DNA of 36,758 nucleotides from Fretibacterium sp. (GTDB lineage Bacteria; Synergistota; Synergistia; Synergistales; Aminobacteriaceae): the NCBI GenBank assembly GCA_017476945.1, contig JAFUYV010000075.1:1-36758 (forward strand), in the 5' to 3' direction. Positions 331-12,506 of the stretch are shown piece after piece. The stretch's first letter is position 1. Every line of letters begins with the position of its first letter. A program made the translations under genes and the position numbers. The notes beneath the pieces were generated by a model that saw only the letters and a list, made by a program, of their open reading frames with translations, ran no database searches and was not told where the DNA came from.

Positions 331-1158
331 ATGGCGGTGAATGAAGTGAATGAGAAGTATGAAAAATTGCGGGATTATCTCGCCGGGTTGGGCAGCGTGG
401 CGGTGGCGTTTTCGGGCGGCGTGGACTCCACCTTCCTTCTGAAGGCGGCCCACGACGCGCTGGACGGCAGGGCCATCGCGGTCACGGCCTCGTCTCACTC
501 CTTTCCGGAGCGCGAGATGAAGGAGGCCGCGGCCTTCTGTCAGCAGAACGGCATTGAGCAGGTCATCTGCCGCTCCGAGGAGCTGGACATCGAGGGCTTC
601 CGCCAAAATCCGAAGAACCGCTGTTACCTCTGCAAGCACGAGCTGTTCGAGAGGATATGGGCCATCGCGCGGGAGCGGGGCATCGCGGCCGTCGTGGAGG
701 GCTCCAACATGGACGACGAGGGGGACTACCGCCCCGGGCTCCAGGCGGTGGCGGAGCTTGAGGTGAAGAGCCCCCTGCGGGCCGTGGGGCTCAGCAAAAA
801 GGAGATACGCCAGCTCTCGTGGGAGCTGGGCCTCCCAACGTGGAACAAACCCTCCTTCGCGTGCCTGGCCTCGCGCTTCGTCTATGGCGAGACCATCAGC
901 GAGGAGAGGCTGGGCATGGTCGAGAGGGCCGAGCAGCTCCTGCTGGACCTGGGCTTCCGTCAGGTGCGGGTGCGGATCCACGCCCCCTCCGGCGCGGGTG
1001 CGATGGCCCGCATTGAGGTGCTGCCGGAGGAGCTGCCCAGGTTGGCGGAGGAACCCACGCGCCAGCGCGTCTGCGGGGAGCTCAGGGCCCTGGGCTTCAC
1101 CTACGTGACGCTGGATTTGAGCGGCTACCGCACGGGCAGCATGAACGAGGCGCTGTAG
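331..1158 (+). CDS. larE: LarE, ATP-dependent sulfur transferase for the nickel-pincer cofactor
   Basis: LarE adenylates the carboxylates of the LarB product and converts them to thiocarboxylates, a step in making the nickel-pincer nucleotide used by lactate racemase and related LarA-like enzymes. The 275-residue protein has the PP-loop SGGVDST (28-34) of the N-type ATP pyrophosphatases and ends like full-length family members. Cysteines sit at C98 and C101 (RCYLC) and C178 (FACLASR). This three-cysteine pattern is the one associated with LarE proteins that carry an iron-sulfur cluster, rather than the single sacrificial cysteine of Lactobacillus LarE. I chose ATG 331 because GGAGG at 319-323 is 7 bases away; a GTG at 325 would be too close. 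No larB, larC or larA is visible nearby. Its 3' end overlaps the convergent gene by 34 bases. Confidence 0.9.
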   Translation: MAVNEVNEKYEKLRDYLAGLGSVAVAFSGGVDSTFLLKAAHDALDGRAIAVTASSHSFPEREMKEAAAFCQQNGIEQVICRSEELDIEGFRQNPKNRCYLCKHELFERIWAIARERGIAAVVEGSNMDDEGDYRPGLQAVAELEVKSPLRAVGLSKKEIRQLSWELGLPTWNKPSFACLASRFVYGETISEERLGMVERAEQLLLDLGFRQVRVRIHAPSGAGAMARIEVLPEELPRLAEEPTRQRVCGELRALGFTYVTLDLSGYRTGSMNEAL

Positions 1159-2108
1159 CGCTCCAGGACGGCCTGATGATACGGCGTGGGGATGCCGGCC
1201 TCCCGGCCCATCTCCACCATCCTGCCGACGAGGTGGCGCAGCTCCGTCCGCTCCGCCGGTTTGCCGGAGCGGAGGTCCCGGTAGAGCGACGTGATGGTGT
1301 CCGGCCTCTCCTTCTCAAAGGTCTCCACAAGCTGGTCCGGCAGGTCCGGGGGCAGCGTCACGCCCCTGGCCGCGGCCACGGCCGTCATCGCGCCGATCAC
1401 CTCGCGCAGCACCGCCTCGTGCGCGGGGTCCTCCCGCGCCTTCCCCACCGGCCCGTCGTAGTAGGCGCACATCACGCCCAGGCTGCACACCCTCGCGTAC
1501 TTGCGCCAGCTATCCACCAGAATATTGCCGGAGACGTCCGTCCTGACGCCCCCCTGGTTCAGCAGGTCCGCGAGCTCCGTCAATGCGGCGGGTTGGCTCC
1601 CGTCCCTCATGCCGAGGGTCACGCGGCACAGGCCGGAGGTCTGCACCACATGCCCCGGTCCCTCCAGGTGGCTGAAGATATAGATCACCCCGTCGGCCAG
1701 CACGCATTGGGGTAGCAGGGGCTCCATGACCTCGGAGACCAGCACCCCGTTGAGCAGGGAGACCACGAGGGTTTCCGGTCCCACCATCGGCGCGATGGCC
1801 GCGCAGGCCGCCTCCAGGTCATACCCCTTGCATGCCACGATGACGGCGTCCATGAGGCCGAGGTCCTCCGCCCGGTCCGAGGCCAGGACGGGCCGGACGG
1901 TGAAGTCCCCCACCGCCGGGGACTCCACCCTCAGTCCCTCCCGCCGGATGGCCTCCAGATTTTTGCCGCGGGCGATGAAGTACGTCTCCGCAGGGGGTCG
2001 CTGGGAAAGGGCCTCAGGCCCACGCTGGGAAAGGGCCTCAGGCCCACGCGCCAGCGCGCCGCCCACGATGCCCCCAATGCCGCCGATGCCAAAAACTGCG
2101 ATCTTCAT
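1125..2108 (-). CDS. Ketopantoate reductase (PanE/ApbA family) with an internal 8-residue tandem repeat
   Basis: A 327-residue NAD(P)-dependent reductase of the ApbA/PanE family. The N-terminal Rossmann motif is GIGGIGG (7-13). The conserved asparagine (SLLNGV, N120) and the catalytic lysine in the WRK motif (K203) of ketopantoate reductases are in place. Ketopantoate reduction to pantoate (coenzyme A synthesis) is one possibility; many family members act on other 2-keto acids, so I give no symbol. Between the first helix and second strand of the nucleotide fold the protein carries RGPEALSQ twice in tandem (residues 21-36), encoded by two identical 24-base units at 2001-2048. Family members normally go straight from helix 1 to strand 2, so this looks like an insertion in a surface loop. 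A GGAGG-type ribosome site precedes ATG 2108. It lies 21 bases downstream of the antiporter operon and may be its last gene. Confidence 0.85.
   Translation of the reverse strand: MKIAVFGIGGIGGIVGGALARGPEALSQRGPEALSQRPPAETYFIARGKNLEAIRREGLRVESPAVGDFTVRPVLASDRAEDLGLMDAVIVACKGYDLEAACAAIAPMVGPETLVVSLLNGVLVSEVMEPLLPQCVLADGVIYIFSHLEGPGHVVQTSGLCRVTLGMRDGSQPAALTELADLLNQGGVRTDVSGNILVDSWRKYARVCSLGVMCAYYDGPVGKAREDPAHEAVLREVIGAMTAVAAARGVTLPPDLPDQLVETFEKERPDTITSLYRDLRSGKPAERTELRHLVGRMVEMGREAGIPTPYHQAVLERYSASFMLPVR
2001..2048 (-). repeat. Perfect 24-bp tandem duplication inside a coding region
   Basis: Two identical 24-base units occupy 2001-2024 and 2025-2048, in frame in the ketopantoate reductase gene. 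Each unit contains the palindrome GGGCCTCAGGCCC and adds 8 residues (RGPEALSQ). Perfect identity suggests a recent duplication. Confidence 0.95.
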
Positions 2109-2129: not shown

Positions 2130-4226
2130 TCAGAATTGTATCAGATAGGCCAGGATGAACAACAATCCCAGCGCGAAGGTCGCCAGGCTGTAAGCCAGGC
2201 TGGAGGGCAGCAACGCCCGGACCATCGGCCCGCCCTCCTCCTCTTGATAGATGCCGAACTCCTGATCCTCCGGCGGGCGGATGAACCGTATTCGAGCGGC
2301 GTGGGACAGCACAAGCGTAATGGGCCCGGCGCACACAAGGTCGATCGCGCGGGCGGCCAGCGCCCCCAGGAAGGGCAGGACGCGGATGAGGATACTGGCC
2401 GCCCTGTCAACGCCCTTCGCGAAAGCTCCGCCCAGGGCTGGAAGCAGCCCGGCGATAAGCGGCCGGAAGGCCAGGTGTTCTAGGTCCAGCCAGCCCGGCC
2501 ACAGGTCAACGCAGACGGGTTCCCCGGCGGCGTCCTTCCGCATCAGGACGGTTCGAACGACGAACAGGTAAATGAGCAGGCCGAGGCCGAGGGAGATAGC
2601 GGCCCCCTCCAGGGAGGAGAGCGAGAAGTAGCTCACGGCATGGTGCTTGGCGGGCCCGTTCATAAAGGACGCGCCGAGGAAGGCGATGGGGTCCGCCAGG
2701 ACGTGCGGCAGGCAGCCCAGCAGGGGCAGCACGGCGGCGGAGAGCGCCAGCACGGCGGCGGAGAGCGGGCTGATGTAGCGCCCCTTCTGATGCAGGCCGG
2801 GGGCGGGCCTCGCCACGAAGAGCACGACGAGGAGCTTGAGGACGTAGGCGGTGGTCAGCGCCCCGGAGACGAGGAACGTCCACTCCGCGGCCTGGAACAG
2901 CAATCGCTCAGAGCTGGGCGTCATGAGGAAACCCAGTGCCCCCGCCCCGGCGCGGCCAATGTGGTGGATGTGCTCGACGATGGCCTCGTGGACGAGGGTC
3001 TTGCCGAGGTAACCGTTCCACAGCGGCATCCCCATGAGACCCAGCCCGCCCATCAGGAAGGCGAAGAGGAAGAGAGGCTTGTCGCGCCCGAAGCCGCGGA
3101 TCTCGTTCAGGCCCAGCTCATGCGTGTTCATGTGGACGACCCCGGCCGCCAGGAAGAGCACGAGCTTGATGAGCGAGTGCCCCACCATGTAGAGGATCGT
3201 GCCGCGCACGGCGAGGTCCCCAAATTGAAGCTCAGGGCGAAAAGGCCCCCCTGCCCCCCCCGTGTCCGCGCCCAGGAAGCACTGCATGGCGATGCCCGTG
3301 AGGATGAAGCCGAGCTGCGACATGGACGAGCAGGCGAGCGTCCTCTTGATGTTGACGGAGAAGACGGCCAGCACCGCGCCCAGCGCCATCGTGACGAGGG
3401 CCAGAGCCAGCAGCGCCAGGCCCCAGCGCGCGTCGTGGAGGAAGGGCCCGGCGCTCAGGGCCAGAACGCCGAAAAGCCCGGACTTGGTGAGGAGGCCGGA
3501 GAGCAGGGCGCTGGACGGGGCGGGGGCGGCGGTGTGGGCGGTGGGCAGCCAGATGTGCGCCGGGAAAATAGCGGCCTTGGCCGCGAACCCGGAGAGGACG
3601 AGGCCGCCGGAGACGTAGAGTGCGCCCCTGTCCTTCACGGCCGCCGCGGCCGCGGCGAGGTCGGCGGTGACGAGCGTACCGAGCTGGTGATTGAGCAAAA
3701 GGAGCCCCATGAGCGTTGACAGCCCGCCGATGATGGCGATGGCGAGGTAGGTCTGGGCGGCGCGAAGGGCGGCCGGCGTCTCGTCCTGGACCACCATGAT
3801 GTAGGAGAAGAGCGACATCATCTCGAAGAAGACGAAGGTGGTGTAGAGGTCCGCGGAGAGGAAGACCCCCATAATGGCCCCCTCGGTCATGAGGACGAAG
3901 AGGTAGTAGCGATTGCGGTTGCGGTGGTGGTCCAGGTATTCCGGGGAGAAGAGCGTCGTCGCGGCCCACATGAAGGCGATAATGGCCGCGTAGATCAGGC
4001 GGAAGCCGTCAAGAGTCAAAGTCAGCCCCAGGCCGCACACGCCATCAAGGGACAGTTTTGCGCCCAGAAGCCCGCGGCAGTGGAGGGCCGCCGCAAGTTC
4101 TACCAGTGTGACCGTCCCGGCGGATATGTCACGCAGGCGCCTGTTGAGCCGCCCGGCGATGAACGACAGAATACCCCCGGCCATGGGCCAGAGGACGAGG
4201 AACAGCAGGAGGGGATTGCCGGTCAT
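2130..4226 (-). CDS. Large proton-conducting antiporter subunit (NuoL/MrpA/HyfB-like), fourth of the operon
   Basis: This 698-residue polytopic membrane protein belongs to the proton-translocating family of complex I NuoL/M/N and Mrp MrpA/D. The helix-5 glutamate is E135 (VFFEMM). The helix-7 lysine is K217 in AAKAAIFPAHIWLPTAH, and a second conserved lysine is K248 (LLTKSG). A lysine also sits in the broken-helix region (YLGKTLV). These residues form the ion-transfer path in the family. The protein is about 200 residues longer than the three other antiporter subunits upstream, with extra C-terminal membrane segments and a charged stretch (PPEDQEFGIYQEEEGG) before the last helix. It is the final membrane subunit of the operon, after the metallo-beta-lactamase gene. 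ATG 4226 follows that gene by 17 bases with a weak GGTGAG ribosome site. Whether it moves H+ or Na+ cannot be read from the sequence. Confidence 0.88.
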   Translation of the reverse strand: MTGNPLLLFLVLWPMAGGILSFIAGRLNRRLRDISAGTVTLVELAAALHCRGLLGAKLSLDGVCGLGLTLTLDGFRLIYAAIIAFMWAATTLFSPEYLDHHRNRNRYYLFVLMTEGAIMGVFLSADLYTTFVFFEMMSLFSYIMVVQDETPAALRAAQTYLAIAIIGGLSTLMGLLLLNHQLGTLVTADLAAAAAAVKDRGALYVSGGLVLSGFAAKAAIFPAHIWLPTAHTAAPAPSSALLSGLLTKSGLFGVLALSAGPFLHDARWGLALLALALVTMALGAVLAVFSVNIKRTLACSSMSQLGFILTGIAMQCFLGADTGGAGGPFRPELQFGDLAVRGTILYMVGHSLIKLVLFLAAGVVHMNTHELGLNEIRGFGRDKPLFLFAFLMGGLGLMGMPLWNGYLGKTLVHEAIVEHIHHIGRAGAGALGFLMTPSSERLLFQAAEWTFLVSGALTTAYVLKLLVVLFVARPAPGLHQKGRYISPLSAAVLALSAAVLPLLGCLPHVLADPIAFLGASFMNGPAKHHAVSYFSLSSLEGAAISLGLGLLIYLFVVRTVLMRKDAAGEPVCVDLWPGWLDLEHLAFRPLIAGLLPALGGAFAKGVDRAASILIRVLPFLGALAARAIDLVCAGPITLVLSHAARIRFIRPPEDQEFGIYQEEEGGPMVRALLPSSLAYSLATFALGLLFILAYLIQF

Positions 4227-4243
4227 GAAAGGCTCACCGTCCT

Positions 4244-4894
4244 TTAAGCGCCGTGCAGTCTCACGCAGAAGCCGTGCCCCGGGGCGATCAGCTTTGGCGA
4301 GGCGGACAACAGAGCCTCCTGGAGCTTCTGCCGCCGCGCCTCGTTCGGGACGCGCTCAGGGGAGATGCCCGCGACCTCATCCTGCCAGCTCCCCTCGATG
4401 ACCTTGCCGCCCGCGTTGCCGAAGCGGAGCATCAAGTCTGCGCTGTAAAATATCCCGCTCCGTCCCTCAAGGCACACGAGCCCGTCCTGAAGGTGAACCT
4501 CCGAGGGGTAGTCAAAGAAGCGGAGGGAGAGCGCCCCGTCCTGAAGCGGTGCGTCGGGGCCGGACACCCGGACCTGTCCCTCATAACCCCAGCCCGGCAG
4601 CTCCCTCGCGCCGAGCGCCGAGCACAGGACGGTGAGCTCCGGCCATGCTTCCAGGAGCACGGGCAGCCCGCCGCTCTCGTCCGACTCCATGTGCGAGACG
4701 AAGACGTACTTGAGCGGACGGCCGTTCAGCACCTCTCGCATCTGGGGCAGGGCCGCCCGGGCCTGCGGGACCGTTCCGGCGGCGAACAGCACCGCGGGCT
4801 CGGCCGCAAGCAGGTACTGATGGAGTGTGAAGTCCATCGGCGGGACGTACGTCGTGAACTGATAAAGGTTTTCACAGATTAGAGACATGCTCAT
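4244..4894 (-). CDS. Stand-alone flavodiiron-type metallo-beta-lactamase domain protein within the antiporter operon
   Basis: A soluble 216-residue protein with the diiron ligand set of the flavodiiron (ODP) branch of the metallo-beta-lactamase fold: H68-x-E70-x-D72, H134, D153 and H207. The spacings (61, 18 and 53 residues between ligands) closely match the H-x-E-x-D-x62-H-x18-D-x60-H rule of flavodiiron proteins. The family's oxygen- or NO-reducing members carry a flavodoxin domain after this one; here the protein stops right after the last ligand loop (APGHGF), so no FMN domain is present. An electron partner, a sensing role or a hydrolytic role are all possible. The start ATG 4894 has GGAG 10 bases upstream; the longer open frame upstream overlaps the preceding gene and is not used. 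It sits between two antiporter subunit genes in one transcript, so a link to that complex is likely but inferred. Confidence 0.85.
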   Translation of the reverse strand: MSMSLICENLYQFTTYVPPMDFTLHQYLLAAEPAVLFAAGTVPQARAALPQMREVLNGRPLKYVFVSHMESDESGGLPVLLEAWPELTVLCSALGARELPGWGYEGQVRVSGPDAPLQDGALSLRFFDYPSEVHLQDGLVCLEGRSGIFYSADLMLRFGNAGGKVIEGSWQDEVAGISPERVPNEARRQKLQEALLSASPKLIAPGHGFCVRLHGA

Positions 4895-4920
4895 TTGACA
4901 GCGGCTCCTTTCCCGTAATT

Positions 4921-6420
4921 TTATATCTCCCCCGCCGCGACGCGGGTGAAGAAGGCGATCAGCGACTCCGCATAGAGGCCGTAGAGGACCGCGCCAAGGG
5001 CCAGGATACCCATCGGGACGAGCATCCGCCAGCTGGGGTCTCTCACGCCCTCGTTGGCCGTCTTGAAGTCGAAGTTCTTGCCCGGCATGAGGGCGGTACC
5101 GAAGATGGAGAAGATATACAACACCGTCAGGACGGCCGACACCCCGATCACCGCGAGCCCGATGTACCCCAGGGGCAGGGCCGCGACCCCTTTCCCGGCG
5201 GCGGCCGCGATGCCGAGCTGCCATTTGCCCATGAAGCCCGCCGCCGGAGGAAGCCCGCAGAGCGCCAGCCCGGAGACGAGCAGCGCCACAAAGGTCCAGG
5301 GCATCCCCATGCCGATGCCGCGCATGTCGAAGAGGTATTCCCGGTGTGTCCGGCAGAGGATGGCCCCCGCGCAGAAGAACAGGTTGATCTTCATGATGGC
5401 GTGGGCCCCCATATGGGTCAGCGCCCCGGTGAGTCCCTCCGGCGTCAGGAGCAGCACGCCCAGCAGGATGTAGGAGAGCTGGCTGATGGTGGAGTAGGCG
5501 AAACGCCGCTTCATGTGCTGGGTGCCCAGGGCCATGGAGGAACCGTAGAGGATGGTGGCACAGGCCATGCAGAACGCCGCCGTCTGAGCCCAGGTCCCGC
5601 TCAGGGACTCCGGCTCAAAGACGTACCACGTCAGGCGGATGATGGCGAACACCCCCGCCTTGACCACCGCCACGGCGTGCAGCAGGGCGGTTACGGGCGT
5701 CGGGGCGATGGAGGCCGCCGGAAGCCAACTGTGGAAGGGAAAGACCGCCGCCTTGACCCCAAAGCCGACGAAGCCCAAGAAGTACGCGGAGAGGAGGAGG
5801 TTCGACGGAGCCTGGGGCCAGATGCCCAGCGTGCCGCCCAGGGCGAAGTCCCCTCCGCCGTGGAGGAGGGAGAAGGCCAGGGGCATGAAGGCGAGCGCGG
5901 CTCCTCCGACGGAGTAGATGAGGTACTTCCGGCCCGCGTAGCGTGCCCGGCCGTCCATCGCGTGCATCACCAGCGGCAGCGTGGTCAGCGTCATGACCTC
6001 ATAGAAGAGATAGAGCGTCAGCAGGTTGGCCGACAGGGCAATCCCCGCCACGACGCCGTAGGTCAGGATGAACCAGGCGTAGAAGGTGCGCTCTCGCCCC
6101 TCATGTTCCATGTACTCGAAGGCGTAGAGCGCCGTCAAAGGCCAGAGCAGCGCGATCATCGCGGCGAAGGCCCTCCCCATTCCGTCGAGGCGCAGGGCGA
6201 AGGAGGCGTTGCCCGACAGGTGAAAGAGCCCCAGCGTCCCCGCCGGGGCCTCCCAGACCAGGAGGAGGAGGAAGACGGAGTTGAGCAGCACAGCCGCCTC
6301 CACAGCGACGTTCCTCCAGAAGCGCATCCGGTAGCGGTGCAGCGGGAGGGCGGGGACGGAGAAAACGGACGTCATGAACACGGGGAACAGGATGGGGAGC
6401 AGCAGCAGTTTCTCAGACAT
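4921..6420 (-). CDS. Proton-conducting antiporter subunit (MrpD/NuoN/HyfB-like), third of the operon
   Basis: A 499-residue polytopic protein of the NuoL/M/N-MrpA/D family. The key ion-path residues are E141 (LYLFYEVM), K223 (GVKAAVFPFHSWLP) and K254 (VVKAGVF), plus the later lysine in FMGKWQL. It is closely similar to the product of the gene upstream (6432-7937): both share ANLLTLYLFYE and LLTPEGLTGAL, which points to a tandem duplication. Position 237 region reads PAASIAPTP where relatives have PTAHPVAPTP, so the usual histidine after the WLP motif is missing here. ATG 6420 has AGGGGAAT upstream and lies 11 bases after the previous stop. It probably forms one of four antiporter blocks in the membrane arm. 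Confidence 0.88.
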   Translation of the reverse strand: MSEKLLLLPILFPVFMTSVFSVPALPLHRYRMRFWRNVAVEAAVLLNSVFLLLLVWEAPAGTLGLFHLSGNASFALRLDGMGRAFAAMIALLWPLTALYAFEYMEHEGRERTFYAWFILTYGVVAGIALSANLLTLYLFYEVMTLTTLPLVMHAMDGRARYAGRKYLIYSVGGAALAFMPLAFSLLHGGGDFALGGTLGIWPQAPSNLLLSAYFLGFVGFGVKAAVFPFHSWLPAASIAPTPVTALLHAVAVVKAGVFAIIRLTWYVFEPESLSGTWAQTAAFCMACATILYGSSMALGTQHMKRRFAYSTISQLSYILLGVLLLTPEGLTGALTHMGAHAIMKINLFFCAGAILCRTHREYLFDMRGIGMGMPWTFVALLVSGLALCGLPPAAGFMGKWQLGIAAAAGKGVAALPLGYIGLAVIGVSAVLTVLYIFSIFGTALMPGKNFDFKTANEGVRDPSWRMLVPMGILALGAVLYGLYAESLIAFFTRVAAGEI

Positions 6421-6431
6421 CGTTTATTCCC

Positions 6432-7937
6432 CTAGTACAGTATCCCGATGATGGGCCGGAAGCAGCTCGTCAGCGGCCCGGCAAACATGCCCGTCAGCAG
6501 CGCCCCCGCGCTGAGCAGCAGCAGCGGCAGCCGCATGTTCATGGGCAGGTGAAAGGGGACGACCGTCGAGTAGTCGTAGTCATTGCCGGGGAAGAAGGCG
6601 TCCACGACGATGGGCAGGAGATATCCCGCCGTCAGCAGCGCGCTGGCCATGAGGACGGCGATGCCGCCCACGCCGAGCCAGCCGAGCTCCGGCGTCAGGG
6701 CCCCCGACGCCATGTACCACTTGGCGACGAATCCCCCCGTCACGGGAAGCCCGATGATGGACAGGGAGGCCACGGCGAAGCAGCTCATGGTGACAGGCAG
6801 CTCCTTCCCAACGCCCCGGAGCTGGTCGGCATAGTGATAGTTGGCCCCCTGGAGCGTGAAGTAGATGACGACGCCCGCGCTGAGGAAGAGGCAGCTCTTG
6901 GCCATCGCGTGGGCCACGATCTGGAGCAGCGCGCCGGTCAGGCCCTCCGGCGTCAGCAGCATCATGGCGAAGACGACGTAGGAGACCTGGCTGACGGTGG
7001 AGTAGGCGATGCGCTTCTTGAGGTGCTTTTCCGTGTAGGCCATCATGGACCCCACGAAGATCGTGAGGAGCGCCAGGCTGATGATGGCCTTCTGCACCCA
7101 CGTGCCCCGGAGGAAGTCCGGCCCCGCGAGGAAGTAGACGACCCGGAGCATCGCGATGATGCCCGCCTTGGTGATGAGGCCGGAGAGCACGGCGCTGGCC
7201 GGGGTGGGGGCCACGGGGTGGGCGGTGGGCAGCCAGGCGTGCAGGGGCACCATGCCGGCTTTCGCCCCGAAGCCCATCAGGGTCAGGAACGTGACCGTCA
7301 GCATCATGTCCCGATTCATCGCGACCTTTTCCATGTCCAGAATGCCGCCCGGCGTGAAGTCCATTGAGACGCCGTAGATGTGAAAGAAGAAAAAGCCCCC
7401 CAGCGCCAGGGCGGCCCCAGCGAGTGAGTAGAACAGGTACTTCACCGTGCCGCGGATGGCCTCCCGCTGCTGAGAGTGCATCACCAGGGGCAGGGTCATG
7501 AACGTCATGAGCTCGTAGAAGAGGTAGAGCGTCAGCAGGTTGGCGGCGCAGGCGACGCCGATCAGGATGCCGAACGTGGAGAGGAAGAAGGCGAAGAAGC
7601 GCCCCTCCGGCGGCCGCCGCCTGAGGTATTCAAAGGAGTAAAAGGTCACGAGCGGCCAGATGAAGGCCACCAGCGCGGAGAAGATGCGGGCCAGCGTGTC
7701 CATGCGGAAGGCGATGCTGAGGGTGTCCGTGACGCGGCAGAGGACGAGGAGCTGGCTCTTCGTGAGGAGCACCGCTGCGACGATCAGGGCCGAGCTCAGC
7801 AGCGTCGTGAGGCCCACCCAAGCGTGCCTGAGGGCGGGTCTTCCTCCGGAGGGGAGAAAGAGAATTGCGACGCCGGCGGCGATGGGAAAGAACACCGGCA
7901 GGAAAGCAAACAGGGGCAGGAACGAAGCGAACGTCAT
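6432..7937 (-). CDS. Proton-conducting antiporter subunit (MrpD/NuoN-like), second of the operon
   Basis: A 501-residue polytopic membrane protein of the NuoL/M/N-MrpA/D family. The ion-path residues are E142 (LYLFYELM), K226 (GAKAGMVPLHAWLPTAH) and K257 (LITKAGI), with a further lysine in GGFVAKWYM. The histidine after the WLP motif is retained (PTAHPVAPTP). I chose ATG 7937 rather than a TTG at 7952 because GGAGG lies 8 bases before this ATG and overlaps the TTG. It is 45 bases downstream of the first MrpD-like gene and is the closest relative of the gene that follows it. It is expected in the cytoplasmic membrane as a cation/proton exchange subunit. Confidence 0.88.
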   Translation of the reverse strand: MTFASFLPLFAFLPVFFPIAAGVAILFLPSGGRPALRHAWVGLTTLLSSALIVAAVLLTKSQLLVLCRVTDTLSIAFRMDTLARIFSALVAFIWPLVTFYSFEYLRRRPPEGRFFAFFLSTFGILIGVACAANLLTLYLFYELMTFMTLPLVMHSQQREAIRGTVKYLFYSLAGAALALGGFFFFHIYGVSMDFTPGGILDMEKVAMNRDMMLTVTFLTLMGFGAKAGMVPLHAWLPTAHPVAPTPASAVLSGLITKAGIIAMLRVVYFLAGPDFLRGTWVQKAIISLALLTIFVGSMMAYTEKHLKKRIAYSTVSQVSYVVFAMMLLTPEGLTGALLQIVAHAMAKSCLFLSAGVVIYFTLQGANYHYADQLRGVGKELPVTMSCFAVASLSIIGLPVTGGFVAKWYMASGALTPELGWLGVGGIAVLMASALLTAGYLLPIVVDAFFPGNDYDYSTVVPFHLPMNMRLPLLLLSAGALLTGMFAGPLTSCFRPIIGILY

Positions 7938-7982
7938 GACAAACACCTCCAAACGGACCGGGTGAGAACGGCCAGATACCCT

Positions 7983-9473
7983 CTAGCCAAACACCCTCAC
8001 CCCCCTCTCGATCAGCCGCAGCAGCGGGACGCAAAAGAGCCCCAGGTAGAAGTTCAGCGCCAGGAAGGCTGCCATAGACAGCTTGTAGAGCCGCGTGGGC
8101 GGAGGGGGCGGGGCGTGGTGCTCCGCGGCCGGGGTCAGGATGACGATCACGGCCGGGACGTAGTACAGCGCGTTCAGCACGGAGCTCGCGGCCAGGGCGG
8201 CCAGGGCCCAGACGATGGCGGGGCTGTCGAACGACGCGAGGGTGAGGCTGAGTTTCGAGGCAAAGCCCGCGAAGGTAGGCAGCCCCATCATGGAGAAGGC
8301 CCCCGCGATGAACCCCAGCCCGGCCCAGCGGTTGGCGTGGAAGGAGCCCATCAGCGCGTGAAGGCCCTTCTTGTGGCCCGCGGCGTTGCTCAAACCCCCG
8401 GCGGCGGTGAAGATCATGGGCTTGACGGCCGCGTGGACGATGATGTGGAGGCACGCCGCCGCGATGCCCGCCACCGTGTTCAGCCCAATGCCCAGGAAGA
8501 TGTAGCCCACCTGGGCCACGGAGGACCAGGCGATCATCCGCTTGACGTTCTTTTGGCTCAGGGCGTGGACGGAGCCCATAATCATCCCCAGCAGCCCCAG
8601 GATCAGGAGCGCGTTGTCCACGCGGAGGCGCTGAATGATCTCCAGGCCGTACACGCGGCAGAAGACCTTGATAATTAGGAGGATGTGCCCCTTGAGCACG
8701 AGGCCGGAGAGGATGGAGCTGGAGGCGTTGGTGGCGCTGCCGTGAGCGTCGGGGAGCCAGAAGGCGAAGGGGTAGAGAGCGCTCTTGACGGCGAGCCCCG
8801 CTGTCATCAGGTTGAGCGCGGCGGTGAGCGGCAGCATATAGCGTCCCGAGGCGGCGAGGTCCTGGATAGCCACGCGCATGTTCTCCATCAGCAGGTGCCC
8901 CGTCAGGCCATAGAGCAGGCAGATGGAGATCAGGACCAGTCCGGAGCCCACCAGGCTCATCACCAGATAGCGCAGCGCGGCCCGGACCGTCTCACCGCCC
9001 TCCTTCGCTGCGACGATGCCGCAGGCCGCGATGGTGTTGATCTCGATAAAGACGTAGGCCGTGAAGATGTCGTTCGTGTAGGTCAGCGCCAGGAGCGAGC
9101 TCATCAGCAGGCTGATCAGGGCGTAGTAGAGCGGCTGACGGCGCGGAGGGATGTCCTCGGCCGTGGAGTTGGCGTTGCCCGTGACGGACAAGAGCATCGC
9201 GGCGCAGAAGACCAGCGCCAGCAGCGCCTCCAGCGGTCCGGCGCGCAGCTCGTTGCCCCAGGGCGCGGGGAAGTGCCCCATCGCGTAGGTGAAGGTCAGC
9301 TCGCCCCTCAGCTCCGCCAGCAGGAACGCGGACATCACGCCGGCGGCGGCGATGGCGGCGGTGGCGGCGCACTCCGGAATTCGGTTCCGATTGGGCAGGA
9401 GCGGCGTCACGATGGCCGCGAGCATCACCAGGAAGATGCTGAAGAACGGGATGTTGTACGCAAGGAAGCTCAT
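7983..9473 (-). CDS. Antiporter subunit MrpD/MbhH-like, first of four
   Basis: A 496-residue polytopic protein of the NuoN/MrpD/MbhH family. It has E144 (YVFIEINTIAACG), K230 (VKSALYPFAFWLPDAH), K261 (LVLKGHIL) and a lysine in the late broken helix (GFASKLSL). Its place right after MrpC is that of MrpD in Mrp operons and MbhH in archaeal membrane-bound hydrogenases, so it is probably the core antiporter subunit, while the other three are additions. The usual proline-rich stretch after the WLPDAH motif is altered to GSATNASSS. A cytoplasmic loop with HHAPPPPPT lies near the C terminus. ATG 9473 overlaps the MrpC stop as ATGA and has GGAGG upstream, so the two are translationally coupled. Confidence 0.9.
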   Translation of the reverse strand: MSFLAYNIPFFSIFLVMLAAIVTPLLPNRNRIPECAATAAIAAAGVMSAFLLAELRGELTFTYAMGHFPAPWGNELRAGPLEALLALVFCAAMLLSVTGNANSTAEDIPPRRQPLYYALISLLMSSLLALTYTNDIFTAYVFIEINTIAACGIVAAKEGGETVRAALRYLVMSLVGSGLVLISICLLYGLTGHLLMENMRVAIQDLAASGRYMLPLTAALNLMTAGLAVKSALYPFAFWLPDAHGSATNASSSILSGLVLKGHILLIIKVFCRVYGLEIIQRLRVDNALLILGLLGMIMGSVHALSQKNVKRMIAWSSVAQVGYIFLGIGLNTVAGIAAACLHIIVHAAVKPMIFTAAGGLSNAAGHKKGLHALMGSFHANRWAGLGFIAGAFSMMGLPTFAGFASKLSLTLASFDSPAIVWALAALAASSVLNALYYVPAVIVILTPAAEHHAPPPPPTRLYKLSMAAFLALNFYLGLFCVPLLRLIERGVRVFG

Positions 9474-9967
9474 AGCAGCCCCTCCCGTTCCAGAAGCTCC
9501 CGGCCCGTCAATGACCGCTCCTCCGTCTCCTGGCCGAACATGCCGTCCTCGTCCCCGACGGCTTCATGGGGCGGTTCCGGAACGGGCACGCCCCTCATCA
9601 GGATGGACGCTGCGTCTATGTCCAGCGTGCCGTAGTGTTCATACAGCCGGAGGGTGAGCGCCAGGGCGAAGGCCGTGACGCTGACGGAGACGACGATGCC
9701 CGTCAGGACGAGCCCCGCCGGGATGGGATTGACATAGGCGGAGGTCTGTTCCACCCAGCCGCCCTCCGCGTTGGGAATGAGGATGGGCGCGGCGCGGCCG
9801 GCCACATAACCCTTGGCGGCCAGGAAGAGGTAGACCGCCGTGTCCATGATGTTGAGTCCGATGATCTTCTTAATGAGGTTCCTTTGAAGAAGCAGGTTTG
9901 CCAGCCCGATGCCCAGCAGGATCACCGAGGCGGCCTCGTAGTGGTTCAGCAGCAGTTTGCTCAGCAT
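9470..9967 (-). CDS. MrpC/MnhC/NuoK-like subunit with a charged C-terminal extension
   Basis: A 165-residue protein with three predicted helices. The family signature of MrpC and NuoK is clear: GIGLANLLLQRNLIKKIIGLNI near the N terminus and NPIPAGLVLTGIVVSVSVTAFALAL at 80-104. In Mrp and complex I this small subunit packs beside MrpD/NuoN and carries part of the ion path. Typical MrpC proteins end soon after the third helix; this one continues for about 55 mostly hydrophilic, acidic residues (for example HEAVGDEDGMFGQETEE), which should be cytoplasmic. ATG 9967 has GGGGGAG 8 bases upstream and follows the preceding stop by 2 bases. The stop overlaps the next start as ATGA. Confidence 0.88.
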   Translation of the reverse strand: MLSKLLLNHYEAASVILLGIGLANLLLQRNLIKKIIGLNIMDTAVYLFLAAKGYVAGRAAPILIPNAEGGWVEQTSAYVNPIPAGLVLTGIVVSVSVTAFALALTLRLYEHYGTLDIDAASILMRGVPVPEPPHEAVGDEDGMFGQETEERSLTGRELLEREGLL

Positions 9968-9969
9968 GG

Positions 9970-10968
9970 CTAGATCTCCCCCTCGCTGAAGAGCGCGTAA
10001 AAACCGTAGAGGGTTCCGGCGACGACGAGCCCAACGCAGATGTTCAGGGGAAGGATCAGCCCTCCGCTCAGGATGTCCCCAACCGTGCCCGCCGGGATGC
10101 CAGAGGCGATGTGGTTGGCCCCCGTGAAGAAGGCGTATCCCTTCGCCGCGGCGTAGGCGAGTAGGGCTCCGCTGCTGGACACCACGAACGTCCGCTCAGG
10201 GAAGAAGGCGTGGACCCGGTCGAACCCGTAGGCGTTGGCGCAGAGGATCAGCGCCGTGCTGAGGATGGCCCCGCCAGAGAAGCCGCCACCCGGCGACAGG
10301 TGTCCGTTGGCCACAACGGCGCAGCCCAGAAGGAGGATGGCCGGGATCGAGAGCGACGCGACGCCGCGCAGGATGGAGTCGTCTCTGCGGCAGGTGTGGA
10401 GGCGCATCTCCGGCGGCCCCCGCAGGGGCTGTGCGCTATCCAGGATGAGCCCGGGGAGGGCGGCGTCTTCGGCGCGGGTCCTGCCGGAGGCCCTCAACAG
10501 CATCAGGACGCTCACCGCCGCCGTGAAGAGCACGGCCGACTCCCCGAAGGTGTCGAAGGCGCGGTAGTCCAGGATCATTCCGGCCACGATGTTCCGCGCG
10601 CCGGTCTCATGACCGCCGCGCTCCACGTAGCGCTGGATTACCTCGTTATGGGCGGGGTTGGCTGGGTCGCCGAAGGGCGGCAGGTCCGCCACGATCACCA
10701 GGAGCAGGGTCACCAGCAGCGCGCAGGTGAGGACGCTCAGCCCTGCGTACAGAGACGAAAATAGGTGCAGACCGTGCTGCTCCAGCCATTGTTCGTAGCG
10801 CTCCCGGATGGTCAGCTCATGGAAGCGCGTGCGGTGCGTCTGGGGCCTCAGCGTGAACGGCAGGGCAGGAGGCGGCTCCGGCGGGACGACCTCGTTCTCC
10901 GGGCGCGGGCCATTGCCCTCCACCCAGTCGCGGAAATGCTGCCAGAGGGCTTTTATTTTCTCATTCAT
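9970..10968 (-). CDS. Fused MbhE-like and MnhB/MrpB-like antiporter subunit
   Basis: A 332-residue protein that joins two parts usually made separately in Mbh operons, or as the MrpA tail plus MrpB. Residues 1-70 are a hydrophilic, proline-rich, presumably cytoplasmic N terminus. Residues 75-160 match MbhE and the MrpA C-terminal tail (NIVAGMILDYRAFDTFGESAVLFTA, shortened here to its core GESAVLFTA). After a linker, residues 200-325 match MnhB/MrpB, with the conserved GHLSPGGGFSGGAI motif. The likely role is a structural and ion-path subunit of the membrane arm. ATG 10968 overlaps the stop of the upstream gene by 8 bases (ATGAATGA) with a strong GGGGGGAG site before it. The fusion is uncommon as far as I know, which I cannot check here. 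Confidence 0.85.
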   Translation of the reverse strand: MNEKIKALWQHFRDWVEGNGPRPENEVVPPEPPPALPFTLRPQTHRTRFHELTIRERYEQWLEQHGLHLFSSLYAGLSVLTCALLVTLLLVIVADLPPFGDPANPAHNEVIQRYVERGGHETGARNIVAGMILDYRAFDTFGESAVLFTAAVSVLMLLRASGRTRAEDAALPGLILDSAQPLRGPPEMRLHTCRRDDSILRGVASLSIPAILLLGCAVVANGHLSPGGGFSGGAILSTALILCANAYGFDRVHAFFPERTFVVSSSGALLAYAAAKGYAFFTGANHIASGIPAGTVGDILSGGLILPLNICVGLVVAGTLYGFYALFSEGEI

Positions 10969-11278
10969 ACGGTTCTCCCCCCTTGTGTTTGGGCTGCCCC
11001 GCTTGGGTGTCCTCAGCGGTCTTGCCGCCCTGATCGCGTCTGTGCCCGATCTGTCCCAGGCGGCGGAGCGCCAGGAAGAACAGGACGCTCGTCACCCCGG
11101 CGCCGACGGCGGCCTCCGTGATGGCGAGATCCGGCGCGCGGAGCAGGACCCACACGGCTGACATGATCAGGCTGTAGCTCATGAAGATGATGACGGAGTT
11201 CAGAAGGTCCCGGGCGAGCGAGACAGCCAGCGCGCAGACGATAAGGAAGCCCAGCAGCAGCCATTCAACGGTGGCCAC
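10961..11278 (-). CDS. MbhD-like / MrpA C-terminal domain subunit (DUF4040 type)
   Basis: A 105-residue protein with three hydrophobic segments matching the MbhD domain, which in Mrp proteins is part of the MrpA C terminus. The signature is RDLLNSVIIFMSYSLIMSAVWVLL followed by APDLAITEAAVGAGVTSVLFFLAL; the second stretch is nearly invariant in the family. A hydrophilic tail follows. In membrane-bound hydrogenase and Mrp structures this domain lies in the ion-path region next to MbhE. The start is GTG 11278 with GGAG 7 bases upstream, one base after the MrpG stop. Confidence 0.88.
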   Translation of the reverse strand: MATVEWLLLGFLIVCALAVSLARDLLNSVIIFMSYSLIMSAVWVLLRAPDLAITEAAVGAGVTSVLFFLALRRLGQIGHRRDQGGKTAEDTQAGQPKHKGGEPYE

Positions 11279-11279
11279 G

Positions 11280-11660
11280 TTATCTCTCCCCCTTCTCCTC
11301 GGACCGGAGTTCCTCGGGGGCCAGCGGGACCAGCTCTCCGTCCCCGTCGAGCTCCAAAAAGTCGCAGAGCTCTTCCAGATTGCGGCAGGTCCGCACCTCC
11401 GCGCGGGCGACGAGGTGGCTGGCCACGGGGTTGCTCAGCCACAGGAAGACGATTGCCAGCAGCAGCTTGAGCGAGAGGACGCTCCAGCCCGCCAGCACCA
11501 TCAGGCCCGCCAGCACCAGGAGCGCCCCCAGCGTGTCGCACTTCGCGGCGACGTGGATGCGGTTCAGCATCGTGCTGAAGCGGAAGATGCCCAGCGTGGC
11601 GACGCCCAGCACAAAGAGCCCGGACAGGATGAGCAGCGCGGCGATGGCGAGGCCGGTCAT
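11280..11660 (-). CDS. MrpG/MnhG-like antiporter subunit
   Basis: A 126-residue protein with three helices and the MnhG family pattern: LFVLGVATLGIFRFSTMLNRIHVAAKCDTLGALLVLAGL. The F-R-F-x-x-M-x-R-I-H-x-A-x-K-x-D-T-L core is the diagnostic part. The role is a small structural subunit of Mrp/Mbh-type cation-proton antiporters. The C-terminal 40 residues are acidic and hydrophilic. ATG 11660 overlaps the MrpF stop as ATGA, indicating coupling. Confidence 0.9.
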   Translation of the reverse strand: MTGLAIAALLILSGLFVLGVATLGIFRFSTMLNRIHVAAKCDTLGALLVLAGLMVLAGWSVLSLKLLLAIVFLWLSNPVASHLVARAEVRTCRNLEELCDFLELDGDGELVPLAPEELRSEEKGER

Positions 11661-11989
11661 AGCTTCGCCTCCTCAGGACCGCCGGGCTCCCCAGCCTCAT
11701 CAATGACCATGCGTGCGAGCACGACGACGGAAAGGAAACTGATGACGGCGTAGATAAGACAGATGTCGGCGAGATAGGACTCCCCGACGATGAGGGCCAA
11801 GATGGCGATCAACACGATGACCTTAGTCCCCACGATGTTGACCGCGATGACGCGGTCGGTGAACCGCGGGCCCAGCACGGCCCGGAGAAGACAGAGAAAG
11901 AGCGTGATGGACAGAAAAACGGCGCTCCCGGTGAGCAGGAGGCGGCGCAGCCCATCGAGGGTCAGGACGCCTTGAAACAGATCAGACAC
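11657..11989 (-). CDS. MrpF/MnhF-like antiporter subunit
   Basis: A 110-residue protein with three helices and the MnhF signature LCLLRAVLGPRFTDRVIAVN followed by a stretch in which GESYLADICLIYAVISFLSV is typical. I chose GTG 11989, which overlaps the MrpE stop in GTGTCTGA and has GGGGAGG 9 bases upstream. A longer open frame reaching an ATG at 12043 would overlap MrpE by over 60 bases and adds residues foreign to the family. In Mrp operons MrpE, F and G are adjacent in this order, as here. Confidence 0.9.
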   Translation of the reverse strand: MSDLFQGVLTLDGLRRLLLTGSAVFLSITLFLCLLRAVLGPRFTDRVIAVNIVGTKVIVLIAILALIVGESYLADICLIYAVISFLSVVVLARMVIDEAGEPGGPEEAKL

Positions 11990-12506
11990 GGGCGCGCACC
12001 TCCCCTGGAGTTCCGGCGGGAAGGGGACTGCGGCCCGCCTCATGGGCCTCCATCTCGGAGAGGAGGCGCTCGAAGGACGAGTCCGCCAGTCCCTCAGCGA
12101 TCTCGTGATTGAGCGCGTGAATCAGGAGCTCGTCGCCCTCCAGAGCGACGGTGATGGTTCCTGGGGTCAGGGTGATGGAGTTCGCCAGGGCCACCCGCGC
12201 CGCCCTGGTCCTGAGCTTCGTGCGGAGGCGGACCAGGCAAGGTTCCACCTCGATGCTTGGGGCCAGGATCAGCCGGATGATCGCGACGTTCGCCTTGATG
12301 ATCTCACAGACCAGAGCCCCGGTGTACAGCAGCGCGCCGGGCAGAAGGCGGACCAGAACGGGGACGGAGACGGACGGAAAGCGGATGCCCAGGGCCCGGC
12401 GCATGAGGTAATCAAGTCCGACGGCGACGGGGATGCCAAGGATGAGGACCTCCCCCGTCACGCGGCCGTTCAACGCCAGCCAGAGGACAAAATACGCTAA
12501 GGTCAT
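11982..12506 (-). CDS. MrpE/MnhE-like antiporter subunit, first gene of the operon
   Basis: A 174-residue protein with two N-terminal helices and a C-terminal cytoplasmic domain. It matches MrpE by the segment LVCEIIKANVAIIRLIL and by the strictly conserved LANSITLTPGTITVALEGDEL stretch (core SITLTPGT). MrpE is required for assembly of Mrp complexes in characterised systems. ATG 12506 has AAGGAGG 5 bases upstream. The gene begins the operon just after the terminator at 12544-12577, so the promoter must lie in the 40-70 bases between or transcription must read through. Confidence 0.9.
   Translation of the reverse strand: MTLAYFVLWLALNGRVTGEVLILGIPVAVGLDYLMRRALGIRFPSVSVPVLVRLLPGALLYTGALVCEIIKANVAIIRLILAPSIEVEPCLVRLRTKLRTRAARVALANSITLTPGTITVALEGDELLIHALNHEIAEGLADSSFERLLSEMEAHEAGRSPLPAGTPGEVRARV

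Follow-up and report, generated by a model that had tools for sequence, protein, structure and literature searches.

A redox-free Mrp-type operon with four antiporter-type subunits in Fretibacterium: a candidate enlarged cation/proton antiporter

Contig JAFUYV010000075.1 of the gut bacterium Fretibacterium sp. (assembly GCA_017476945.1; the window analysed here is its whole stretch of 36,758 nucleotides), which forms part of a 2.09-Mb genome with a completeness rating of 100%, carries on its minus strand, from position 12506 to 2130, an operon of ten Mrp-type genes. These specify MrpE, MrpF, MrpG, MbhD, a protein in which MbhE and MnhB are fused, and MrpC, followed by four subunits of the antiporter type (APLS, that is, PF00361 proteins), which are termed D1 to D4 in gene order. 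The operon was translated and scanned against Pfam, and the Mbh-like series of genes that a first-pass annotation of this DNA had named was found complete, in that order and at those coordinates. We propose, with a probability of roughly 0.68, that its product is a stand-alone, enlarged antiporter of the Mrp type (CPA3) exchanging a cation for protons.

The first-pass annotation had suggested looking in other genomes for the same gene order and for redox genes. When D4 was used as a query against 84,980 genomes, 477 relatives were obtained and the best 80 kept; these came from Synergistaceae and mainly from Lachnospiraceae, Oscillospiraceae, Anaerotignum and other Clostridia, plus a Treponema. 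The order E-F-G-MbhD-MbhE/B-C-D1-D2-D3-D4 recurred in 49 of the 80 loci, drawn from two phyla and nearly all clostridial, with identities of ∼45–80% and a median gap of 16 bp between APLS genes. Because a ten-gene order is conserved in 49 loci from two phyla, the cluster is not a chance arrangement. No gene outside the ten was conserved across ∼58 loci. Within Synergistota, the module is confined to 46 of 188 genomes, belonging to 4 of 63 genera and a single family, and its horizontal acquisition from Clostridia is plausible. One of these genera, g16 (genomes G018 and G029), keeps E-F-G-D-E/B-C-D1-D2 in one operon and has D3 alone and D4 alone at distant loci. That D1 to D4 are all retained despite this scattering argues for one machine.

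D1 to D4 are the sole PF00361 genes in the window's genome. Genome-wide searches for NuoB (PF01058), NuoH (PF00146) and 49-kDa/NiFe-like proteins (PF00346) gave no match in this genome or in two congeners (G001 and G002). The absence of NuoB-, D-, H- or I-like proteins from the window, noted in the first-pass annotation, was confirmed among the window proteins scanned, to which the search for NuoI was limited. Genomes G018 (100% complete) and G029 also lacked NuoB and NuoH, and neither was among the PF00346-positive genomes. Thirteen further carriers (Clostridia, one Treponema and one Fretibacterium) contained exactly four PF00361 genes each; 11 of them lacked NuoB-type proteins, and the matches in the other two, both Anaerotignum, were lone genes at a distance from the operon. 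For the window's genome, these absences rule out a redox partner of a known family but leave room for a non-homologous partner of an unrecognised kind. The first-pass annotation had left a choice between a stand-alone multi-ion exchanger and a membrane arm whose redox part is encoded elsewhere; these results favour the former and speak against the latter. Only one Synergistota carrier, G015, had a 49-kDa-like gene; its NuoD/NuoH-like genes were discarded as a candidate missing arm since they lie in a separate cluster with their own divergent APLS-like gene. Co-occurrence of the module with the 49-kDa gene or with Rnf in Synergistota was strong across genomes but not at genus level (p = 0.30 and 0.12, respectively), the carriers belonging mostly to one genus, and was not used as evidence.

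All four subunits of the window are full-length and keep the helix-5 Glu and helix-7 Lys (E144/K230 in D1, E147/K231 in D2, E141/K223 in D3 and E135/K217 in D4), in agreement with the first-pass annotation. In the sets of D1 to D4 sequences compared, which hold some loci more than once because these were fetched twice, the Glu of transmembrane helix (TM) 5, the Lys of TM7, the Lys of TM8, the His/Lys of TM11 and the Lys of TM12 were retained in essentially all members. The position of the switch histidine (His248 in MrpA, His254 in NuoL; PMC9568556, PMC13358369) separates the four: it was His in 68/68 D3 sequences and Ser in all those of D1 (71/71), D2 (70/70) and D4 (97/97). The complete set of this His and its partner residues Ser/Thr150, Thr312 and Lys342 (NuoL numbering) was found in D3 only. 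In related forms with three APLS (P1-P2-P3), the switch His is located in P2. The AlphaFold model of D4 (mean pLDDT 85) has a 14-helix core followed by TM15 (residues 536–561), a helical stretch predicted with low confidence (582–643) and TM16 (677–697), and its top Foldseek matches in the PDB were MrpA and NuoL. The hallmarks of MrpA and NuoL are thus divided here, the His switch lying in D3 and the long C-terminal extension in D4 only.

A survey of variants in a Clostridia sample and in plasmid records showed that the number of APLS in redox-free, Mbh-ordered Mrp operons varies: it can be 3, 4 or 5. Three (P1-P2-P3) are present in Peptoclostridium, haloarchaea and many Clostridia. The first-pass annotation had given two such subunits for Mrp and three for complex I; these counts need context, as three-APLS Mbh-type Mrp and four-APLS complex I exist and the four-APLS operon is widespread in gut Clostridia. 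Phylogenetic trees had long deep branches, several of them weakly supported, and only local groupings were used. D1 fell with the Peptoclostridium P1 on the MbhH/MbsH/NuoN side, D4 with the Peptoclostridium P3 (support 100/99), and D2 and D3 with P2 (100/100). In a second tree D2 and D3 grouped together to the exclusion of P2 (98/97), which points to one duplication of the middle subunit; the extra subunit of loci L162 and L165, which reached four APLS by a separate gain, fell outside this pair. As read from these trees, the four-APLS state would derive from a three-APLS ancestor whose middle subunit was duplicated to give D2 and D3. Other compositions were also seen. A Lachnospiraceae metagenome-assembled genome (MAG) has five full-length APLS in one operon (L105:4006-12064; D1, D2, D2′, D3 and D4), D2 having been duplicated again; a Treponema MAG has four (L114:5364-12304; D1, a second D1-like subunit, D2 and D4) and no His-switch subunit; and the clostridial loci L163, L164 and L166 combine P1 with two P3-like extended subunits, also with no His-switch subunit.

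In Mrp and MBH, the membrane-bound hydrogenase, cation transfer falls to the small subunits and proton transfer to the APLS (PMC7419157, PMC9568556), and the mechanism proposed here builds on that homology. The small subunits (E, F, G, MbhD, MbhE/B and C) would form a cation path beside D1, as in Mrp and MBH. The APLS would be stacked outward from MrpC in the order D1-D2-D3-D4, with D4 as a distal cap whose lateral helix would brace its neighbours. The membrane potential would drive protons in through the APLS, and a cation, probably Na+, would be driven out at the site formed by MbhD, MbhE and MrpB. The cation-site residues of these three are largely retained: the MbhD Glu and the equivalents of MbhE E780 and MrpB F41 are present, and E687 of MrpA is replaced by an Mbh-type Glu positioned one turn earlier. 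A H+/cation ratio of about 2 has been proposed for the two-APLS Mrp. Because APLS are proton paths, the ratio of the present complex is probably higher, if each added APLS adds one proton. Such a lower gear would allow a weak proton-motive force to hold a steep Na+ gradient in anaerobes with a Na+-based economy. The genomic setting fits an organism of this kind: an RnfD-family gene was found in 18/18 carriers tested, and the closest PDB match of the genome's own V-type c subunit was the K subunit of the Enterococcus hirae Na+ V-ATPase, with PGTQG, QGK and VETYA, which we take to be the motifs around the ion site, all kept. More tentatively, the 3-, 4- and 5-APLS forms might make up a variable-gear series, in which anaerobes tune how many H+ one and the same Mrp-type machine exchanges per cation through the gain or loss of proton-channel subunits, usually with a single His-switch subunit among them, between a fixed inner D1 and an outer cap D4.

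Several observations weigh against an enlarged, Na+-extruding Mrp. Asp38 of MrpF is functionally important in the Mrp studied, and the corresponding position (residue 69 of the window's MrpF) is Asn in 74/74 members of the group, the three-subunit and haloarchaeal forms included. This Asn is a marker of the group; to judge from it, the cation may enter by another route than in the Mrp studied, or may be another ion, and it is mainly for this reason that caution is due on ion identity. The lack of a His-switch subunit in the P1+P3+P3′ clusters and in the Treponema cluster means that one switch per complex is not a universal rule. The separate D3 and D4 loci of g16 would also allow a looser association, the lateral-helix region is the low-confidence part of the D4 model, and the physical order of D1 to D4 is deduced from gene order and topology. 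For no member of the group was a measurement of transport found.

Other explanations have to be set against this reading. The best-studied homologous membrane arms with at least three APLS, those of complex I and of the four-APLS rhizobial complex I (pSymA), do have redox modules, and the universal RnfD among the carriers tested would also suit a view of the operon as the membrane part of a bigger pump powered by redox reactions, with an electron-transfer part located elsewhere or of an unrecognised kind. We nevertheless regard this as improbable: NuoB, NuoH and 49-kDa/NiFe proteins are absent from both the genome itself and the 100%-complete G018, most other carriers lack NuoB-type proteins, the 49-kDa-like gene of G015 stands in a cluster of its own, and no conserved non-Mrp gene accompanies the operon. 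Equally improbable is the view that two machines share the operon, a Mbh/Mrp-like core with D1 (or D1-D2) and a separate D3-D4 unit. The isolated D3 and D4 genes of g16 would be expected under it; in that same genus, though, all four APLS are kept with the genes scattered over three loci, so the outcome that the first-pass annotation had named as one that would undo its reading, a split of the four subunits between two unrelated complexes, is not the favoured one. Elsewhere 49 loci hold one compact operon, D2 is sister to D3, the His switch (contributed by MrpA in Mrp) is found solely in D3, and no partner genes of D3 or D4 were seen.

The ion or the direction of exchange could be different. 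An antiporter for K+, Ca2+ or NH4+ would agree with the Asn at the MrpF Asp38 position, and transport of Ca2+ instead has been reported for a group 1 Mrp (PMC5703873); a reversed exchange, with Na+ entering and H+ leaving, would suit cells whose Na+-type V-ATPase and Rnf suggest Na+ as the primary gradient. The conserved cation-site residues of MbhD, MbhE and MrpB speak against a change of ion, and a reversal moving many H+ per Na+ would, on thermodynamic grounds, run against the membrane potential; we think it unlikely that either holds. Least probable by far is an energy-coupled uptake of CO2 or bicarbonate of the DAB kind. DabB is a related APLS, and D4 matches DabB2 in the PDB (7e-14); the DabA-like partner (PF10070) was not found among the window proteins scanned, no genome-wide search for DabA having been made. 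The E/F/G/MbhD/E/B/C set of subunits is not known to belong to DAB.

The candidate antiporter was compared with the closest known systems. With the canonical seven-subunit Mrp of groups 1 and 2 (Bacillus pseudofirmus, 7QRU) it shares E, F, G, B and C, the Glu/Lys chain of the APLS, the His switch, the E780 and F41 equivalents and the absence of a redox part. The canonical Mrp, however, has two APLS (MrpA and MrpD), Asp38 in MrpF, and an MrpA that unites an APLS, the lateral helix and the C-terminal domain in one chain, whereas here the parts of MrpA are shared out among D3 (which has the His switch), D4 (with the lateral helix), MbhD and MbhE/B. Group 3 Mrp (Microbacterium mrpFGBCDDAE and Aphanothece mrpCD1D2EFGAB) also have more than two APLS genes, an irregular gene order and no redox part; they differ in that the cited examples do not exceed three APLS and have a gene for MrpA (PMC5703873). 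Three-APLS Mbh-type Mrp, represented by Peptoclostridium acidaminophilum (EAL2_RS12435-12475) and Halomontanus rarus (P1Y19_RS26135-26175), have the same E-F-G-MbhD-(MbhE)-MnhB-C order and likewise lack redox genes. In Clostridia, P1 of this form resembles D1, the His-switch P2 resembles D3 and the extended P3 resembles D4, the single P2 standing in place of the D2+D3 pair; the records show automatic annotation only.

The archaeal MBH (6CFW) and MBS (6U8Y) resemble the operon in how their membrane-part genes are ordered and in the split MbhD/MbhE, and D1 lies on the MbhH/MbsH side of the tree; unlike it, they have one or two APLS, a redox module and no His switch (PMC13358369). Complex I with four APLS is known (Chadwick et al. 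2018, as cited in PMC7419157). The form encoded on Sinorhizobium pSymA likewise has four APLS, and in the tree its extra pair (Sm_cI_D1/D2) groups with the P2 class and the haloarchaeal P3; it differs in possessing NuoA-E and others as well as NuoJ/K, and in lacking MrpE/F/G. Two rhizobial plasmid clusters of this kind were seen (L147:7008-17173 and L144:7008-17020), whose additional pair falls with P2 and P3 of haloarchaeal Mrp; this suggests that in the rhizobial four-APLS complex I Mrp parts replace NuoL.

On sequence grounds, then, the complex is placed in Mrp/CPA3, broadly defined, as a divergent member, being neither a canonical Mrp, an MBH nor a complex I. It has MrpB, C, E, F and G, four 14-TM APLS with the TM5 Glu and the TM7/TM8/TM12 Lys, the His248 equivalent in D3, the cation-site residues and no redox subunits. 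The single-polypeptide MrpA and MrpF Asp38 of groups 1 and 2 are missing. Genome-wide, there is neither the NiFe-type or NuoB/D-like redox subunit nor the NuoH-like subunit of MBH, Mbs and Ech; for complex I, the four-APLS form included, NuoB, D and H are absent from the genome and NuoI from the window proteins scanned, and no DabA was found in the latter beside the DabB-like subunit. In the open-licence literature, the part covered by our search as distinct from subscription literature, no account of four or five APLS in a complex free of redox subunits was found. Under automatic annotation these genes go by the name 'proton-conducting transporter membrane subunit'; they are thus on record, while their architecture appears not to have been described.

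How several APLS in a row are coupled, with one proton each per cycle or otherwise, is a question for both Mrp and complex I; doubt has now been cast on the model in which four pumping paths are self-contained (PMC9568556). Related redox-free complexes with 3, 4 and 5 APLS make the H+/cation ratio measurable against subunit number with no electron transfer involved. The His switch (D3) and the lateral-helix cap (D4), which MrpA and NuoL unite, lie apart in this system. Being common in gut Clostridia, the operon bears on sodium and proton handling by gut anaerobes.

The coordinates of the operon genes, which are almost contiguous and mostly preceded by recognisable ribosome sites, are collected in Table 1.

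Table 1. Genes of the Fretibacterium operon, with their positions in the window
Feature	Position	Strand	Remarks
MrpE/MbhA-like subunit	11982..12506	-	174 aa, first gene; PF01899 2e-28; clear Shine-Dalgarno AAGGAGG
MrpF/MbhB-like subunit	11657..12043	-	128 aa annotated; PF04066 4e-12; Asn at MrpF Asp38 position (alignment to 7qru_F)
MrpG/MbhC-like subunit	11280..11660	-	126 aa; PF03334 1e-22
MbhD-like subunit (MrpA C-terminal part)	10961..11278	-	GTG start; PF13244 2e-22; APDLAITEAA motif with Mbh-type Glu; aligns to subunit D of MBH and MBS
Fusion of MbhE-like (MrpA C-terminus) and MnhB/MrpB domains	9970..10968	-	332 aa; PF20501 and PF04039; E780, F41 and H34 equivalents kept
MrpC/NuoK-like subunit	9470..9967	-	165 aa; PF00420 5e-21
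D1, antiporter-type subunit	7983..9473	-	496 aa; PF00361 2e-48; MbhH/MbsH/NuoN side of tree; without His switch
D2, antiporter-type subunit	6432..7952	-	506 aa; PF00361 2e-50; sister of D3; Ser at His-switch position
D3, antiporter-type subunit	4921..6420	-	499 aa; PF00361 2e-52; sole MrpA/NuoL histidine switch (His248, Thr147, Thr311, Lys344)
Diiron-type metallo-beta-lactamase (ODP/FDP-like)	4244..4894	-	216 aa; PF19583 5e-6, PF00753 8e-5; between D3 and D4
D4, antiporter-type subunit	2130..4226	-	698 aa; PF00361 1e-41; NuoL/MrpA-type C-terminal extension; Ser at His-switch position

The TTG start of D2 and the long N-terminus of MrpF are probably over-extended annotation, the true start of MrpF lying downstream. 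The metalloprotein gene between D3 and D4, which the first-pass annotation had counted into the operon as a flavodiiron-type member, specifies a metallo-beta-lactamase with the ligand residues typical of flavodiiron/ODP proteins, HxExD...H...D...H. A flavodoxin domain is lacking, and among PDB entries the protein matched a rubredoxin:oxygen oxidoreductase best (1e5d, 4e-6). The gene is absent from the 80 other loci, and at the D3-D4 site two congeners have a Sel1-repeat lipoprotein gene and G015, from a third genus, only ∼60 bp. Since this site holds other genes or nothing in relatives, the metalloprotein was rejected as a functional subunit; it is a non-conserved passenger in the operon, outside the complex. 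Sel1-repeat proteins recur inside the antiporter operon of relatives (L036:9513-10400, L037:11168-12055, L040:5832-6395 and L043:4257-5048), in the D3-D4 gap in the two congeners and in the MbhD-MbhE gap in genus g16.

A ketopantoate-reductase-like gene (window positions 1125-2108) begins 21 bp past the end of D4, with which it may share a transcript; a different gene occupies its place in the congener locus L036. Another Synergistota Mrp cluster (L049:7206-17390), considered as a Mrp-Rnf fusion and rejected as such, has two antiporter subunits followed by genes for a LysE-type exporter and an OpuA-type glycine-betaine transporter, which point to salt stress.

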